From: an uncultured Dehalococcoidia bacterium
GTDB lineage: Bacteria; Chloroflexota; Dehalococcoidia; Lucifugimonadales; GCA-2712585
Assembly: GCA_951812825.1 (NCBI GenBank)
Contig: OX638324.1
Coordinates: 878,459 to 942,458, forward strand
Reading direction: 5' to 3'
Length of the DNA stretch: 64,000 nt
A program made the position numbers and the translations under genes. Shown here in pieces: positions 29,459 through 41,498 of this stretch. The notes under the pieces were generated by a model. The model saw nothing but the letters and a program-made list of their open reading frames with translations. It did not search any database and was not told the DNA's origin. The first letter of the stretch is position 1. Each line of letters begins with the position of its first letter.

Positions 29459-31021
29459 ATGGCAATCCAACCTAAATCAGACGAGCGCCTCAAGAAGCTG
29501 GATGAACTTCGCCACCAGTCCCGCCTCGGCGGCGGGCAGAGGCGCATCCAGCAGCAGCACGCCAAGGGCAAGCTCACCGCCCGCGAGCGGCTTGACCTCC
29601 TCTTCGACCCCGGCGCCTTCGAAGAGCTGGACCCCTTCGCCACCCATCGCACCACCAGCTTCGGCCTGGATAAGAACCGCCCTCCCGGCGACGCTGTAGT
29701 CGCAGGCCACGGCAAGATCAACGGCCGCCTAGTATTCGCCTACGCCCAGGACTTCACCGTTCTGGGCGGTTCCGTCTCCGAGACCGTCGGCAAGAAAATA
29801 TGCAAGGTCATGGATCTCGCCATGAAGGTCGGCGCGCCCATCATCGGCATCAACGACTCCGGCGGCGCACGCATCCAGGAGGGCGTCCTCAGCCTCGCCG
29901 CCTACGGCGACATCTTTCTTCGCAACACCATGGCCTCCGGCGTCGTCCCCCAGATTTCCGTCATCCTAGGCCCCAGCGCCGGCGGTGCAGTCTATTCCCC
30001 CGGCATCACCGACTTCGTCTTCATGGTCCAGGGTGTGGGCCAGATGTACATCACTGGCCCCGATGTCATTCGGGCCGTCATGGGCGAAGAGGTCACCCAC
30101 GAGGAGCTTGGCGGCGCGTCCGCCCACGCTATCCAAAGCGGAGTGGCCCACTTCGTCTACGAGACCGAAGAGGAGTGCATTAAGGAACTCCGCCGCCTCC
30201 TCTCCTTCCTCCCAAGCAACAACATGGATGATCCCCTGTTCCAGGAACCGTTGGACCCTTCCGATCGTCTCGACCCGGACCTCCTCGACGTGGTGCCCAC
30301 GGAACCCAATAAGGCCTACGACGTTCGTGAAATAATGTCCCGCGTGGTGGACGATGGCGACCTCATGGAAGTTCACCAGAACTTCGCCCCGAACATCGTC
30401 GTCGCCTTCGCCCGCATGGCCGGCAAGCCCGTCGGCCTCGTCGGCAACCAGCCCTCCCACCTCGCCGGCGTCCTCGACATCGACGCCTCCGTCAAGGCCG
30501 CCCGCTTCATCCGCTTCTGCGACGCCTTCAACATCCCCATCGTCACCTTCATCGACGTTCCCGGCTTCCTTCCCGGCACCGACCAGGAGCACGGCGGCAT
30601 CATCCGCCACGGCGCGAAACTCCTCTACGCCTACGCCGAGGCCACCGTGCCCAAGGTCAGCGTCATGATACGCAAGGCCTACGGCGGCGCCTACATCGTC
30701 ATGAGCAGCAAGCACCTCCGCGGCGACGTCAACCTCGCCTGGCCCACCGTTCAGATTGCCGTCATGGGGCCCGATGGTGCCGTCAACATCATCTTCAGGG
30801 AAGCCATCTCCAACTCCTCCAACCCGGAGAAGACCAGGGCCAAGTTCATACGCGAATACGAAGAAGAGCTCGCCACCCCCTACGTCGCCGCAGGCTACGG
30901 GTTCCTCGACGACGTCATAGACCCCGCCGAGACCCGCCCACGCATCATCGCCGCCCTGGACATGCTCAAGGACAAGAAGGACACCCTCCCTCCCAAGAAG
31001 CACGGCAACATCCCCCTCTAA
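29459..31021 (+). CDS. Acyl-CoA carboxylase carboxyltransferase subunit
   Basis: A 520-residue PccB/MmdA-type carboxyltransferase, moving CO2 from biotin to propionyl- or another acyl-CoA. Motifs: [175 protein letters not shown]. No biotin carboxylase or biotin carrier gene is adjacent, so the partner lies elsewhere. A methylmalonyl-CoA decarboxylase alpha role is an alternative. Confidence 0.93.
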
Positions 31022-31125
31022 CCCGAATCCAGCCCCTTCTTCCCCCTCTCATCTCCCTCACCTGCAATCCACCCACCCGCCCTCCACGTATCACTACCAG
31101 AAACTCCAAACATAGGCGGAGGATT

Positions 31126-32448
31126 ATGACAAATACCCGCGCTCCCAAGGTTGCCCTGGCTCTGACTGCTTCCCTCCTCGCCCTGGCCCTCCTTATCGTC
31201 GCCGCCTGCTCATCCGAGCGCCCCGAATCCACCCCCGTGGCCGCCTCTGTGCCCGCGCCAACGGCCATGCCTACCGCTGCTCCGGCCCCCACCTCCGCCC
31301 CTACTCAAGCGCCCGCAGCTACCTCCACACCCGCTCAAACCCCTGCAATCACCGCCACTCCTGTCCCCACCCCCACAACCCCCGAGCCCACGCCCAATCC
31401 AACCTCGCCGGCAGGCCCCCTCGCCCCTGAACTCGTGGGCACCCAGGAATGGGTCAACTCAGACCCCCTCACCATCGAAGGATTGCGCGGCAAAATTGTC
31501 CTCGTCGACTTCTGGACCTACACCTGCGTCAACTGCATCCGCACCCTCCCCTACCTCAAGGTTTGGCACTCCAAGTACGCCGACGATGGACTTGTCATCC
31601 TCGGCGTCCACACCCCCGAGTTCAGGTTCGAGCACGACATTGACAACGTCCGGCAGGCCGTCTCCGACTACAGCCTCACCTATCCCATAGTCCAGGACAA
31701 CAACTTCGACACCTGGGACGCCTTCAACAACCGCTACTGGCCCGCCAAGTATCTCATCGACCAGAACGGCGTCATCCGCTACCAGCACTACGGCGAGGGC
31801 GCCTACGCCGAGACCGAAGCAATGATCCGAGAACTCCTCCAGGAAACCGGCGTCAACGTATCCGCCATTACCCCTCTGCTGGCCCCCGACCAGGATCTGG
31901 ACTTCGCCTTCAAGAACAACATAGGCGCGGAGATAACCGCCGAGCTCTACGGAGGCTACGAACGAAGCTGTAGCCTCTACAGCCTCTACTCCAACAGCTA
32001 CATCGCCGCCCCGGATTACTGCAAGTCCAAAGACCAGGTCGTCGAGTACACCGACGACGGCTCTCGCAAGGCCCACGCCCTCTATCTGCAAGGTCCTTGG
32101 CTCGCCGGCAAGGAAAGCCTTCGGCACGCCCGCGACACCAACGACTACGAAGACTACATGGCCTTGCGCTTTGCCGCCAAAAGCGTAAATGTCGTCCTTA
32201 CCCCCGAGCAGGAAGAGACCTTCAAGGTCCTCGTCAAGCTCGACGACGAATACCTCAATGAGTTCAACAAGGGCGAAGACGTGGTCATAGAGGACGACGG
32301 CAAGAGCTACCTCATCGTCGACAAGCCCCGTCTCTACGCCGTCGTCGAAGCGCCGGAGTACGGCGCCTACGAACTGGAGCTTAGCTCCAACTCCTCCGAT
32401 TTCGCCGTCTTTGCCTTCACCTTCGGCGTCTACACCAAGGGCATATAG
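31126..32448 (+). CDS. DipZ-like thioredoxin-domain lipoprotein
   Basis: A 440-residue protein with a CGGAGG ribosome-binding site. Lipoprotein signal with LLIVAAC (Cys28), then a Pro/Thr/Ala linker (~31-98). A TlpA/redoxin domain follows with WTYTCVNCIRTLPYL (active-site C134 and C137), LGVHTPEFRFEHDIDNVRQAV and the cis-Pro region YWPAKYLIDQNG. The C-terminal ~170 residues match the extra domain found after thioredoxin in DipZ proteins (YERSCSLYSLYSNSY, ALYLQGPWLAGKESL). It should act as an extracytoplasmic thiol oxidoreductase; the CcdA protein at 53058-53948 could feed it electrons. Confidence 0.85.
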   Translation: MTNTRAPKVALALTASLLALALLIVAACSSERPESTPVAASVPAPTAMPTAAPAPTSAPTQAPAATSTPAQTPAITATPVPTPTTPEPTPNPTSPAGPLAPELVGTQEWVNSDPLTIEGLRGKIVLVDFWTYTCVNCIRTLPYLKVWHSKYADDGLVILGVHTPEFRFEHDIDNVRQAVSDYSLTYPIVQDNNFDTWDAFNNRYWPAKYLIDQNGVIRYQHYGEGAYAETEAMIRELLQETGVNVSAITPLLAPDQDLDFAFKNNIGAEITAELYGGYERSCSLYSLYSNSYIAAPDYCKSKDQVVEYTDDGSRKAHALYLQGPWLAGKESLRHARDTNDYEDYMALRFAAKSVNVVLTPEQEETFKVLVKLDDEYLNEFNKGEDVVIEDDGKSYLIVDKPRLYAVVEAPEYGAYELELSSNSSDFAVFAFTFGVYTKGI

Positions 32449-32638
32449 CCTCCAGGTTGCATCACGCCCGCCGTGTCCCCGCCGATGGAACCCTTTGCAT
32501 AACCGTCATTCCGCCCCCCCTTCGTCATTCCGGCGCAAGCCGGAATCTATCTCTTCCCCTCCCTGGAGACAATTCTGGAACCACCCATCTCTTGCCATAC
32601 CCCCTTTACATCCCGCCCTGACGCGGCATAATTAGGCC
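32449..32638. repeat. Spacer with dispersed repeats
   Basis: It holds a GAACCCTTTGCATAACCGTCATTCC element (near 32487-32513) and a palindrome (32524-32547; CATTCCGGC and GCCGGAATC arms). TTTACA...CATAAT with a 16-base spacer (about 32606-32633) is a probable pyrD promoter, ending just before the pyrD ATG. Confidence 0.5.
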
Positions 32639-33652
32639 ATGCTCTACAAGGCCTTCCTGCGGCCTCTCCTCTGGTCCCTTCCTCCCGAGCTTGCCCACGC
32701 CTTGGGAGAGTGGGCGTTACGCAGGAAGCTCCTCTGGAAGCTGCTCGCTCCCTTCCACAACACCCGCGACCCAGTCCTCGCCACGTCCCTCGCCGGCATC
32801 CCCATCCCAAACCCGTTGGGCGTAGCCGCAGGCTCCGACAAAGACTGCGCCTACCTCGATTCCCTCATGAATCTCGGCTTCGGCTACGCCGTAGGCGGCA
32901 CCGTCACCCTCCACCCCCGCCCGGGGAACCCCCGCCCCCGCCTCCTCCGCCGTCCCCGCCAGAAGGCCCTGGTCAACGCCCTCGGCTTCCCCAGCCTTGG
33001 AATCGACGTCGTCGAAGCCAATCTCCGAAAGCAGTCCGCCGTTCCTACGGTCCTCAGCATCTCCGGCCTCACCGTGGACGAATTCCGCCGGTGCTATCAA
33101 AGGTCCGCTCCCCTCGCCCGGAGCATAGAGCTCAACGTCAGCTCCCCAAACACCGCCGGCCTCCGCGTGTTCCACGACCCCTCCGCCTTCCGGGAACTCC
33201 TCGAAAGCGTCAACAGTCGCCGCACCACTCCCCTCTTCGTCAAAATACCGCCTTACTCCGACCCCCAAGAGCAGCAAAACGTCCTGACCCTCGTTCGCAT
33301 CGCCCGTGAACTGGGCGTCGACGGCATCACCGCCGCCAACACCCGCCCCGTGGAGGAACCCGCCGTCAAGATGGGCCGCGGCGGCCTCAGCGGTAAACCC
33401 CTCCTCCCCGACACCCTCCGCATCGTAGCCGACGTGCGAAACGAGGTGGGCGAGACCATGACTGTCAACGCCTGTGGCGGCATATCCACCGCCGATGACG
33501 TGGTCAAGGCCCTCAAGGGCGGCGCAGACACCGTCCAGATATACACCGCCCTCGTTTACGAAGGGCCCGGGCTGGCCCGGAGAATAAATCGAGACCTCAG
33601 CCGCCTCCTCAGAAATCGCTCCCTACCCACCATCCACCACCTCAAACCCTGA
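32639..33652 (+). CDS. pyrD: Dihydroorotate dehydrogenase (class 2-like)
   Basis: A 337-residue FMN enzyme of pyrimidine synthesis. The N-terminal amphipathic extension (LYKAFLRPLLWSLPPELAHALGEWALR) is that of membrane-associated, quinone-dependent enzymes. Motifs: NPLGVAAGSDKDCAYLDSLMNLGFGYAVGGTVT, KALVNALGFPSLG, SIELNVSSPNTAGLR, FVKIPPY, GGLSGKPLLP, VNACGGISTADDVVKALKGGADTVQIYTAL. GSDKD replaces the common GFDKN/GFDKD. No other pyr gene is adjacent. Confidence 0.9.
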   Translation: MLYKAFLRPLLWSLPPELAHALGEWALRRKLLWKLLAPFHNTRDPVLATSLAGIPIPNPLGVAAGSDKDCAYLDSLMNLGFGYAVGGTVTLHPRPGNPRPRLLRRPRQKALVNALGFPSLGIDVVEANLRKQSAVPTVLSISGLTVDEFRRCYQRSAPLARSIELNVSSPNTAGLRVFHDPSAFRELLESVNSRRTTPLFVKIPPYSDPQEQQNVLTLVRIARELGVDGITAANTRPVEEPAVKMGRGGLSGKPLLPDTLRIVADVRNEVGETMTVNACGGISTADDVVKALKGGADTVQIYTALVYEGPGLARRINRDLSRLLRNRSLPTIHHLKP

Positions 33653-34516: not shown

Positions 34517-35479
34517 ATGTTCGCTAGACTCAGAAACGCCCACCTCCGTCGTCCTTGGGTAGCCATCCTGGTTCTTTCCGTTGCCCTCACGGCTGCAATT
34601 TCCACCTGGCTCCTGCTGGACGATCCCGACCCATCCCTCAGGGAGCTTCCCCGGCACAATTCCTTCCACGGGGCCAGCGAATTCGTCGTGGGCGAAAACC
34701 GGTTCCCCTTCGCCCTCGCCTCCGTGGAAGGAGAACCCCTCGTCAACGCCCACATTTCCGTCAGCTTCTACTATCTGCAAGACTCCGAGTGGCAATACAG
34801 GTTCCGCAGAAACGCCGAATACCGCGAGGTCGAAGGTGTCACCCCACACCTCCACGACGACGGCTCCCTTCACAAGCACCTGGACGTCCGCGGTCAGTAC
34901 CTGGCAACAGTCAACTTCCAAAGCCCGGGCATCTGGCAGGCCAGGTTCACCCTGAATACCGGCGGCGAATCTGGCTCAACCGTCGGCGACCTCGCCTTCA
35001 ACGTCCTCCCGGAACCCATCGCTCCGGGCGTGGGCCAACCCGCGCCCCCTACCTACAACCTCACCCTCCGTGACGTTTCAACCATCAACGAAATCGAGAC
35101 CCGCGACCCTCCCGACGACATGCACCACCTTTCCGTCGTTCAGGCTCTGGAGCTGCAAAAACCCTTCGTAGTTGTCTGGAGCGCGCCCATGTTCTGCACC
35201 AGCGCCATCTGCGGCCCCGTCCTCGACGCCGCCGTGCGCCTTCAGGACAAATTCGGCGAAAGGGTCAACTTCATCCACATAGAGCCTTGGGACCTCAAAA
35301 CCGCCCGCACCGAAGGTCGCCTGGCCCCCATCCCCGAATTCACGGAATGGGGTCTGACCACCGAGCCGTGGGTCTTCATCGTAAACGCACAGGGTCTGGT
35401 CCACGCCAGGTTCGAAGGCCTGGTCACCGACGAGGAACTGGAGCAAGCAGTGACGGCCGTCCTGCTGGAAACCACCTAG
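34517..35479 (+). CDS. Membrane-anchored thioredoxin-like protein with CX4C motif
   Basis: A 320-residue protein with an N-terminal anchor (residues 13-34, WVAILVLSVALTAAISTWLLL). Residues ~55-165 form a beta-rich domain (FVVGENRFPFALASVEGEPLVNAHISVSFYYL...ATVNFQSPGIWQARFTL). A thioredoxin-like domain follows (~200-320): PFVVVWSAPMFCTSAICGPVLDAAVRLQDKFGERVNFIHIEPWD, then EWGLTTEPWVFIVNAQGLVHARFEGLVTDEEL. The active site is CTSAIC (C227, C232), four residues apart rather than two. It should act outside the membrane, perhaps on metal or thiol chemistry. It is next to the small Cys-rich genes. Confidence 0.75.
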   Translation: MFARLRNAHLRRPWVAILVLSVALTAAISTWLLLDDPDPSLRELPRHNSFHGASEFVVGENRFPFALASVEGEPLVNAHISVSFYYLQDSEWQYRFRRNAEYREVEGVTPHLHDDGSLHKHLDVRGQYLATVNFQSPGIWQARFTLNTGGESGSTVGDLAFNVLPEPIAPGVGQPAPPTYNLTLRDVSTINEIETRDPPDDMHHLSVVQALELQKPFVVVWSAPMFCTSAICGPVLDAAVRLQDKFGERVNFIHIEPWDLKTARTEGRLAPIPEFTEWGLTTEPWVFIVNAQGLVHARFEGLVTDEELEQAVTAVLLETT

Positions 35480-38346: not shown

Positions 38347-39238
38347 CAGGTCAGTCCCACCTTTCTTGCTGGTCCATCATTCCCAGAGGACTCGTCCGCT
38401 CGCCCGACTCATCGTCCGCCGCGGAAAATCCCCCATACATTCTATGCCCTTTCCCAACAAATTGGCACCTGTAACATTCCCTATCACAGATCTCTTGTCT
38501 TCGCGGAGGGGCCCTCCCTCCGCCATTCTGCTAGGGCGGGCTTCAAACCCGCCCTACCCATCCCGTGTCACCACGAAGGCAGAAGCCCACTCTTCATCCC
38601 TATCGCTTCACATGTCATTCTGAGGAGGCCCCGCGACGAAGAACCTGGCGGTGGGGCCTCTCCCCTCTTCTCCCTTCCCTATCCGTTCACCCCACCCCTT
38701 ACGTCATTCCCGCGCAGGCGGGAATCCAGTCCCCAAACCCTCCCCCGTAAGGCCGATTCGCCAACCACCCTCCCTCTCCACCCACAATCTCCTTAACCAC
38801 AGAGACCCCAATCCTCCCCCACGCCCAACCCCAAACTTGCCGTCATGCAATGACCCGTCACGCAGTGACCCATCCCCCTCCCACAAAGTGACAACTTTCC
38901 ATTGTCAGGAATCCCCCTCCCCTGCTACCATACCTTCATGCCTATCCCCTTCCCTCCTGATGTCATTCTGAGCGCAGCAAAGAATCTCACCGCGCCCCTG
39001 CCACCATTTGCTTGCCAAACTTTCTTCAAACGAATCTCACGCCTGAAACGAACCATTCTAGGCACGGAATCGATTCCGCTAACGAATCGCTTGCACACCT
39101 GAAGTCGCGAAAACCCATGACAGGCCCACCTACCCCCTCCACCCATCCATTCCCCTGGTGACTTCGTATAAACTTATGGACAACGTCCACTCCACATCCT
39201 CAATCACGACCGCCCAATTCAGTATAGAGAGGCCCTCA
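38347..39238. other. Long repeat-rich spacer
   Basis: No gene is seen in ~890 bases. It carries an AGGGCGGGCTTCAAACCCGCCCT palindrome (38532-38554), a TCATTCTGAGGAGG...GAAGAACCT element (38612-38646), a palindrome (38703-38729), a GTAAGGCCGATTCGCCAACC element (~38746-38767), two GTCA(T/C)GCA(A/G)TGAC palindromes (~38840-38870), promoter-linked element C (38889-38940) and, after it, AAACGAATCTCACGCCTGAAACGAACC (39028-39054; given here only as its core words AAACGAATC and CACGCCTGAA). Confidence 0.5.
38889..38940 (+). promoter_or_regulatory. Promoter-linked repeat element C
   Basis: TGACAACTTTCC, TTGTCA (38902-38907), an 18-base spacer, TACCAT (38926-38931) with TG before it, and an ATG starting 7 bases after the -10. 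Confidence 0.5.
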
Positions 39239-40618
39239 TTGACGAAGTTCCGGCTGGCCGACATCACCGCCTTCCTGCTCACCCTCTCACTTGCCCTCGC
39301 CTTAACCGCCTGCGGACAGGACTCCACCTTAGAGCCCGCACCCACGTCACAGCCCGCTCAAGCCACCCCATCATCCCAATCCCCCGCCACGCCCTCCGCC
39401 GCTGCTGCCGAAACTCCCGCGTCGTCCCCGAGCCCATCGCCATCCCCAACCACCTACGCCCCCACCCCCATCAACCGGCCAACCTCCTTCGCTCCCAGAA
39501 GTCCTGACCCCACACCCCTGCCTGATACCCCTTCGCCCACCTCCACACCTCCCCCAACAAGAACCCCGATAGCAACCCCAACCCCAATAACCTCCACCCC
39601 GGCACCTACCCTGACTGCAACGGCACAACCCACACCCACATTCGACGACCCCTACGATGACCTCAACGTCATCACCCTCCTGCCCAAGGACGGCATTCCC
39701 GCCATCCTCGATCCCACCTTCATCAGCGCCGAGGAGGCGTGGGATCAGTATCTCCCCGACGAAGCCGTCCTGGGCGTCTCCATAAACGGCGAGCACAGAG
39801 CCTACTCTGTCCCCTACCTGAGCTCCCGCGAAATTGTCAACGACGAGCTTGGAGGTGTGGCCATCGCGGCCACCTGGTGACCCCTCTGCTTTACGGGCAT
39901 GGTTTTTGCCCGCGATATCGGCAACCAGACCCTCACCTTCGGCGTCTCCGGCAAGCTCGTCATGAACGCCCTTGTCATGTACGACCACCAGACCGATAGC
40001 CTCTGGAGCCAGTTCCTCAGCAGCGGCATCCGCGGCGAATTTCGAGGGACTCAACTCGAACTCCTCCCCGCCCTCATGACCGATTGGCAGACCTGGGCAG
40101 AACTTCACCCGGACACCCTCGTCCTCAACAAGGGCGGAAGATATAGCCGCGACTCTTACGAACGATACTATGAGTCTTCCGACGCTGGCGTTCTTGGCGA
40201 AACCAGGTCAGACGACCGCCTCTACACCAAGGAGTACGTCGTCGGCCTCGTCCACAACAACGTTATCCGCGCCTACCCCTTCAGCGCCCTCAACGACACC
40301 CCGGTAGTGAACGACATCGTCGGCGACGACCCGGTCCTCGTAACCTTCGATGCCCACTCCGGCGCCGGCGTGGTCTTCAGCCGCGTCGTCGACGGCCAGA
40401 CCTTAACCTTCGAGGCCATCGACGACGAAGGCGATTCCACCAACGGACTGCTCTACGTCCAGGACGCCGAGACGCAAACTCGTTGGCTCGCCCTAACCGG
40501 CGAAGCTGTCGAAGGAGAACTCGCAGGCACAACCCTACAGCAAATCCCCACCACCCTCTCATTCTGGTTCGGCTGGAAAGACTTCTTCCCCAACACCGAA
40601 ATCTACCAAGCAAACTAG
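39239..40618 (+). CDS. DUF3179 lipoprotein, probable selenoprotein (UGA at 39878)
   Basis: Two open frames (to 39880 and from 39881) are in the same phase, separated by one TGA. Read through as Sec, they give one 459-residue protein: signal with LTAC lipobox (Cys25), a Pro/Thr/Ser linker (~27-140), then a DUF3179 domain. TGA falls exactly on the first Cys of the family's WCPLC motif, giving TW-U-PLCFTGMVF (Sec214, Cys217). The family continues on both sides (REIVNDELGGVAIAATW and FGVSGKLVMNALVMYDHQTDSLWSQFL). A hairpin at 39894-39912 fits a bacterial SECIS. TTG 39239, six bases after AGAGAGG, gives the best signal peptide; starts at 39158 or 39176 are possible. A nonsense mutation is the alternative. 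The role is probably thiol/selenol redox outside the membrane. Confidence 0.75.
39894..39912 (+). promoter_or_regulatory. Candidate bacterial SECIS element
   Basis: CGGGCA and TGCCCG (6 bp) enclose the loop TGGTTTT. The loop begins 20 bases after the UGA and has G as its second base followed by GU, matching the usual bacterial rule (short stem, G within the first two loop bases, loop 16-37 bases from the UGA). Confidence 0.6.
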
Positions 40619-40634
40619 ATGAAGACGGTCAATC

Positions 40635-41498
40635 ATGTCTGAGCATCCCACATTCGGCGAATTTGTCCTAGGCTTGGAGGGACTCGCAATCCTTCGCTCC
40701 TGGATGACAGACCCTGCAACAGTTAAAGCCAGATCAAAGATGATCGCGGAAATCGTCAGGCAGCTTGAAAAGCCTCCTTGGTCCAACGCTATCGAGGGAA
40801 TGGAGCGCACTACCATAACGGGTTACGCTGAATGGGCAACCACCTATGACAATTCAAGCAGCCCACCGATTCTGGCGGAACAGCCCATCGTACGCAGTCT
40901 CATCACCAATCATCCCGTCGGCAAGGCCCTCGATGCGGCCTGTGGCACAGGGCGGCATGCTGAATACCTCGCCTCCTTGGGTCACCGGGTAACTGGTATC
41001 GACGCCACCTCCGAAATGCTCGAAGTAGCCAAGGCAAAGGTGCCCGGAGCAAAGTTTGAGCTTGCGGAGTTGGACTCCATTCCGCTGCCGGACGACGCAA
41101 TTGACCTGGCTGTTTGCTCGCTGTCGCTGACGCACTGCCCCAACCTCATCCCTCCCATCACCGAACTTTCGCGAGTCATCCGCCCGGGAGGAACCCTGAT
41201 CATCTCCGATGTCCATCCTTTCCTCATAATGCTGGGTGCGCACGCTGACTATCAACTGGGTCAAACCACGACCAGGTTCGTGAGGAACCACGCCCATCAA
41301 GTATCGGCTTATCTGTCTGCCTTTCAAGAAGCTGGACTCAACATCGTACAATGTATTGAGCCCCTCTATGGCGATCAGGAAATTTCCGCCGGGAACTTGG
41401 GGAGGCAGATTGAAGACCTTCACCTGGACGGATTGATGGAAGTTGCAGAAAAGGGAATCCCCATCGTGATAATATGGGAACTCCAAAAGGGTGCATAA
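40635..41498 (+). CDS. SAM-dependent methyltransferase (class I)
   Basis: A 287-residue protein. Residues ~1-60 are a variable cap. Motif I is KALDAACGTGRHAEYLASLGHRVTGIDATSEMLEVAKAKVPGAKFELAELDSIPLPDDAIDLAVCSLSLTHC (UbiE/Methyltransf_11 type), then ELSRVIRPGGTLIISDVHPF. The substrate is unknown; the TTRFVRNHAHQVSAYLSAFQEAGL end is shared with small-molecule methyltransferases. It lies 16 bases after the DUF3179 gene on the same strand. Its base composition is less C-biased than that of its neighbours. Confidence 0.88.
   Translation: MSEHPTFGEFVLGLEGLAILRSWMTDPATVKARSKMIAEIVRQLEKPPWSNAIEGMERTTITGYAEWATTYDNSSSPPILAEQPIVRSLITNHPVGKALDAACGTGRHAEYLASLGHRVTGIDATSEMLEVAKAKVPGAKFELAELDSIPLPDDAIDLAVCSLSLTHCPNLIPPITELSRVIRPGGTLIISDVHPFLIMLGAHADYQLGQTTTRFVRNHAHQVSAYLSAFQEAGLNIVQCIEPLYGDQEISAGNLGRQIEDLHLDGLMEVAEKGIPIVIIWELQKGA

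Follow-up and report, generated by a model that had tools for sequence, protein, structure and literature searches.

Predicted selenocysteine at an in-frame UGA of a putative DUF3179 lipoprotein from an uncultured Dehalococcoidia bacterium

The UGA codon at position 39878 of a DUF3179 gene is, judged from sequence comparisons, almost certainly translated as selenocysteine (Sec). The gene lies in a 64,000-nt stretch of the chromosome of an uncultured Dehalococcoidia bacterium, referred to here as the window. The complete reading, a 459-residue lipid-anchored DUF3179 selenoprotein with a putative Sec/Cys redox pair into which Sec is inserted by means of a SECIS element and SelB, is held with high confidence. 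Computation yielded a recoding signal, the machinery in the host genome, conservation of the site and a model of a duplicated fold.

Reading frame and protein architecture

The features of the gene are compiled in Table 1. Translation of the window revealed only one internal stop in the gene's frame, in agreement with the preliminary description, which had reported a single in-phase TGA between two open frames. The surrounding sequence reads AATW-U-PLCFTG, with the motif W-U-P-L-C. Standard gene calling cuts the gene at the TGA into two ORFs. Family sequence had been claimed on both sides of the codon, and the match to PF11376 (DUF3179) indeed runs unbroken across it (profile positions 1-292, 289.7 bits against a gathering score of 27, E 3.4e-86). 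TTG was taken as the presumable start codon; it is preceded by a Shine-Dalgarno-like GAGAGG at 39226-39231, and an alternative in-frame start is the ATG at 39176.

The proposal that the product is a lipoprotein was supported by the lipobox L-T-A-C, which agrees with the consensus [LVI]-[ASTVI]-[GAS]-C. An NCBIfam search with the window protein gave just a sub-threshold lipoprotein signal match. At the conserved His of the family motif HExxND, the window protein carries Arg (CGC, 39827-39829); His is found at this site in 123 of 133 relatives and Arg in 8 sequences of the set.

Table 1. Features of the DUF3179 selenoprotein gene (positions in the window)
Feature	Position	Strand	Remarks
DUF3179 selenoprotein gene	39239-40618	+	459 residues if the UGA is translated as Sec
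Signal peptide ending in lipobox L-T-A-C (Cys25 = 39311-39313)	39239-39313	+	Lipobox read by eye
Pro/Thr/Ser-rich linker	after lipobox, to about 39660	+	Sequence
DUF3179 domain	39686-40597	+	Pfam match, residues 150-453
Repeat 1 of DUF3179 domain, probable Rieske-like fold, holds Sec/Cys pair	39755-40138	+	hhalign duplication and model
UGA codon, predicted Sec214 (U of UxxC)	39878-39880	+	TGA/Cys column in homologues
Cys217, putative resolving partner, codon TGC	39887-39889	+	Cys kept in 125/125 U or C homologues
bSECIS hairpin	39894-39912	+	Folding, bSECIS rules, covariation
Repeat 2 of DUF3179 domain, probable Rieske-like fold, without CxxC	40223-40615	+	Model and hhalign

Conservation of the site in homologues

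Within the class, 197 genomes were searched; 76 of them have DUF3179, and in 21 of the 76 one or more copies contain an internal TGA. The homologue set comprised the TGA-bearing copies, many stop-free copies of the class and 21 named loci from GTDB genomes. The alignment of 131 domains has TGA at the site in 51, TGC in 66 and TGT in 8, and in 6 the codon specifies Ser, Asp or Gly. Because the set is enriched for TGA copies, these counts cannot be read as frequencies. The suggested replacement of the first Cys of WCPLC by Sec, giving U-x-x-C, thus stands on 51 TGA and 74 Cys codons, and the alignment proposed earlier as a check for UGA/Cys pairs returned one or the other in 125 of 131 domains. 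Other residues at this site had been named as a possible refutation. They do occur in the remaining 6 domains, which refutes nothing, since these have also lost the partner Cys.

The Cys three residues downstream is present in 125 of 125 Cys/Sec homologues and absent from all 6 others. The two residues are kept or lost jointly and so behave as one unit. In L114, L115, L127, L131, L150 and L151, where both CxxC residues are lost and Ser, Gly or Asp stands first, the protein perhaps has a non-redox role.

The closest relative (L056), on the chromosome of another uncultured Dehalococcoidia bacterium, is 68% identical and has TGA at the same place, and so do relatives with about 50% identity or less. 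Sec was clustered in a tree of 130 rows (8 changes vs 40 in shuffles), and the tree forces at least 5 transitions from or to Sec. On these sequences, Sec/Cys switching in DUF3179 is recurrent, not rampant. An earlier tree, which contained fewer Cys rows, had suggested that the window gene belongs to a clade of Sec proteins only; this idea was abandoned when three Cys proteins fell within the clade on wider sampling. Genome G190, of the same order (L082, L093, L105, L106, L113, L114), contains eight DUF3179 matches, several of them with TGA, and L105 has a second in-frame TGA; this set suggests lineage expansion and decay.

Recoding signal

The hairpin CGGGCA-TGGTTTT-TGCCCG lies 13 nt past the TGA and has a 6-bp stem and a folding energy of -10.8 kcal/mol; its loop, TGGTTTT, starts 19 nt after the UGA. 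According to the published bSECIS rules, the loop has 3-9 nt, carries G within its first two positions and lies 16-37 nt from the UGA, the stem has at least 4 bp, and the MFE is -7.5 or lower (PMC13188914). All of these constraints are satisfied, as expected from the preliminary description of a SECIS-like hairpin at this position.

By itself the window hairpin proves little, because its energy is ordinary (z about -1.3) and the generic rules are passed by 5 of the 44 comparable TGA sites in the 64-kb window, the DUF3179 site included. A site counted as comparable if its TGA codon was flanked by open stretches of 80 or more and 60 or more codons, and the remaining sites that pass were read as lying in non-coding frames. 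Given the amino acids encoded, the chance of the hairpin in the window sequence alone is about 6.5%, so that the SECIS argument is borne by the family evidence.

The hairpin rises above chance because it is conserved and covaries across homologues. For the covariation analysis, 31 TGA sequences that could be aligned gap-free were chosen from subfamilies with one common hairpin register. In these, 92.6% of the cells of a seven-pair stem are standard pairs, two-sided (compensatory) changes occur in 6 of the 7 pairs, and the covariation score is 0.410 vs 0.018-0.077 with the 3' arm slid by 1-3 nt. In the unselected set, all six outer pairs are formed in 32 of 53 TGA sequences vs 0 of 38 Cys sequences. 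When the TGA sequences were recoded synonymously (500 trials), 2.6 on average and at most 9 formed the six-pair stem. The stem is shifted by one base in distant subfamilies with UIxC motifs, and 15 of 51 TGA homologues (about 30%) fit neither tested register, the hairpin being shifted or imperfect.

These data bear on the possibility that a nonsense mutation or sequencing error converted TGC or TGT of a Cys gene to TGA and left a pseudogene. TGA is indeed one base away from either Cys codon, and the Arg in place of the conserved His is another unusual residue of the window gene. However, 51 homologues have TGA at the same codon, among them two other genes of the host and the more distant relatives; the hairpin covaries with TGA only and not with Cys, and the frame 3' of the TGA remains open and fully family-like. 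Such an origin is very improbable and appears, in practice, to be refuted by the homologue survey.

Selenocysteine machinery of the host

The host genome consists of a single contig of 2.47 Mb. A search of it for selA, selB, selC and selD, recommended in the preliminary description, recovered all four: selA (550 bits), selB (350 bits, cut-off 242), selD (375 bits) and tRNA-Sec (selC) with the anticodon TCA (UCA). Lack of selB or selC had been named as a refutation and does not apply here. The selD gene is itself a selenoprotein gene, with an in-frame TGA in CAG-U-ASKF (L022 1531). Four DUF3179 genes are present, three with TGA and one with Cys at the same site; the motifs are WUPLC in the window, YUTLC in L017 and L018, and YCPLC in the Cys form, L015.

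Of the 21 genomes in the class that carry a TGA copy, 19 have selB; the other two are 69% and 78% complete. The co-occurrence is consistent with Sec insertion but not significant alone (Fisher p 0.13), because selB is also present in 39 of 55 genomes that have uninterrupted DUF3179 copies only. It is frequent across the class (131 of 197 genomes).

Decoding of the UGA without the Sec machinery, either by a general reassignment of UGA to Trp or Gly or by unassisted read-through, would equally allow the frame to go on past the TGA. Its probability is considered negligible, given that the window holds only 44 TGA codons between open stretches of the lengths stated above, that the other hairpin-passing sites are in frames read as non-coding, that homologues have Cys and not Trp at the site, and that tRNA-Sec, SelA, SelB and SelD are all encoded by the host. 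For Sec insertion, the following course is proposed: SelA and SelD would make Sec-tRNA-Sec, which would load SelB, and SelB would bind the hairpin at 39894-39912, leading to insertion of Sec at the UGA.

Structure model

The AlphaFold2 model of the DUF3179 domain has a pLDDT of 95.7, and that of repeat 1 alone 96.7; both models are thus confident. The domain is internally duplicated (hhalign probability 99.9, E 3.5e-35, 125 columns). The U/CxxC motif is confined to repeat 1; repeat 2 has DAHS there. In comparisons with solved structures, the best 50 rows for repeat 1 were all Rieske proteins, as were essentially all top rows for the whole domain (repeat 2). Each repeat superposed on Rieske ferredoxins over approximately 92/103 residues with an rmsd of about 3 Å and a Z of 8.2-8.4, where values of 7-8 can be background. 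The Rieske-like fold of both repeats is therefore probable, not certain, Z being close to background and the best Foldseek E-values weak (0.015 and 0.14). PDB sequence searches with the window protein and with a profile gave no meaningful match.

The ligands of a Rieske cluster (CxH ... CxxH; two Cys and two His) are absent from the DUF3179 domain of the window protein. Its chalcogen residues are Sec214 and Cys217 alone, the latter being the sole remaining Cys of the domain, which leaves Sec/Cys as the sole redox pair. The residue offset, taken from aligned ranges, suggests that UPLC may be located before the position of the Rieske cluster loop. An even chance is given to the generalization that DUF3179 is a duplicated Rieske-fold family without Fe-S cluster that relies instead on a single Sec/Cys (or Cys/Cys) pair located in repeat 1. 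If true, DUF3179 would represent a cluster-free, selenium-based redox module on a Rieske scaffold.

Proposed function

The product would be a membrane-anchored extracytoplasmic lipoprotein of 459 residues, in which a lipidated N-terminus is followed by a flexible Pro/Thr-rich linker and the duplicated, putatively Rieske-fold DUF3179 domain. Within a loop of repeat 1, Sec214 and Cys217 would make up a selenol/thiol pair, most likely alternating between the reduced state and a selenenylsulfide. The protein would thus be an envelope redox protein of the thiol-disulfide type. The proposal of a redox role is based on the motif and on the habit of the family.

Binding of a metal or metalloid (e.g., Hg, Cu or As) by the Sec/Cys pair of a true selenoprotein, instead of thiol-disulfide exchange, is the main rival for the function, not for the Sec assignment. 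Joint keeping or loss of both residues would be expected of ligands too, and the closest structural matches are Rieske proteins (all of the best 50 rows for repeat 1) and not thioredoxins. Metal binding is nevertheless rather unlikely, with just two chalcogen ligands available in the domain and with prokaryotic selenoproteins thought to be mostly redox proteins, according to PMC9312934. Thiol-disulfide chemistry is accordingly the preferred role.

Comparison with known families

The preliminary description knew of no selenoprotein in the DUF3179 family, and this has to be corrected. DUF3179 (pfam11376) is tabulated as a prokaryotic selenoprotein with UxxC/T (PMC9312934; Biomolecules 2022 12:917) and tabulated again in PMC13188914 (Appl Environ Microbiol 2026 92:e00556-26); the former credits Zhang and Gladyshev 2007 (its reference 63), on an Olavius symbiont. 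The window gene is therefore not a new selenoprotein family; it is a further, well-supported member of one already listed, and the recoding itself involves no new principle.

The known members share the Pfam domain and Sec as the first residue of UxxC. They were reportedly first found in a deltaproteobacterial worm symbiont, whereas the nearest named relatives of the present host are Chloroflexota MAGs and the host has three Sec copies. Within the class, the Sec form is common. Sec-containing DUF3179 proteins are easily overlooked or taken for broken genes, because gene calling splits the gene at the TGA. The two table entries give neither structure nor function, and in the accessible literature, where three papers mention the domain, neither a function nor the duplicated Rieske-like fold nor the joint loss of the pair was found. 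The new part may be structural, namely the internal duplication and the Rieske-like halves without cluster ligands; the fold model and the joint pair loss are a first structural lead for a family of no known function.

Each repeat superposes on Rieske [2Fe-2S] ferredoxins such as the naphthalene dioxygenase ferredoxin (2qpz), but DUF3179 differs by the missing CxH...CxxH ligands and is only about 4-15% identical with the best matches. With TlpA/ResA-type thiol-disulfide lipoproteins it shares the lipid-anchored envelope location and a CxxC-like redox motif; those have a thioredoxin fold, whereas DUF3179 models as a Rieske-like sandwich.

Gene neighbourhood

No constant neighbour of DUF3179 was found across relatives. 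A TlpA-like gene is located at 31126-32448 in the neighbourhood of the window gene, and another near DUF3179 in L056. Only this closest relative shares the nearby TlpA-like, dihydroorotate dehydrogenase-like and carboxyltransferase genes (L056 5705-8948, window 29459-33652), their orientation relative to the DUF3179 gene being opposite. The window ORF at 34517-35479, without a Pfam family match, encodes a membrane-anchored protein of thioredoxin-like look with a CTSAICGP motif.

A methyltransferase gene (40635-41498) comes after the DUF3179 gene of the window. A relative of it is located 3' of the Sec-DUF3179 paralogue L017 (L017 2482-3205; G000:C1 about 2360989-2361712); it is split over more than one frame and is therefore probably a frameshifted pseudogene. 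The DUF3179-methyltransferase gene pair looks duplicated in the host genome.
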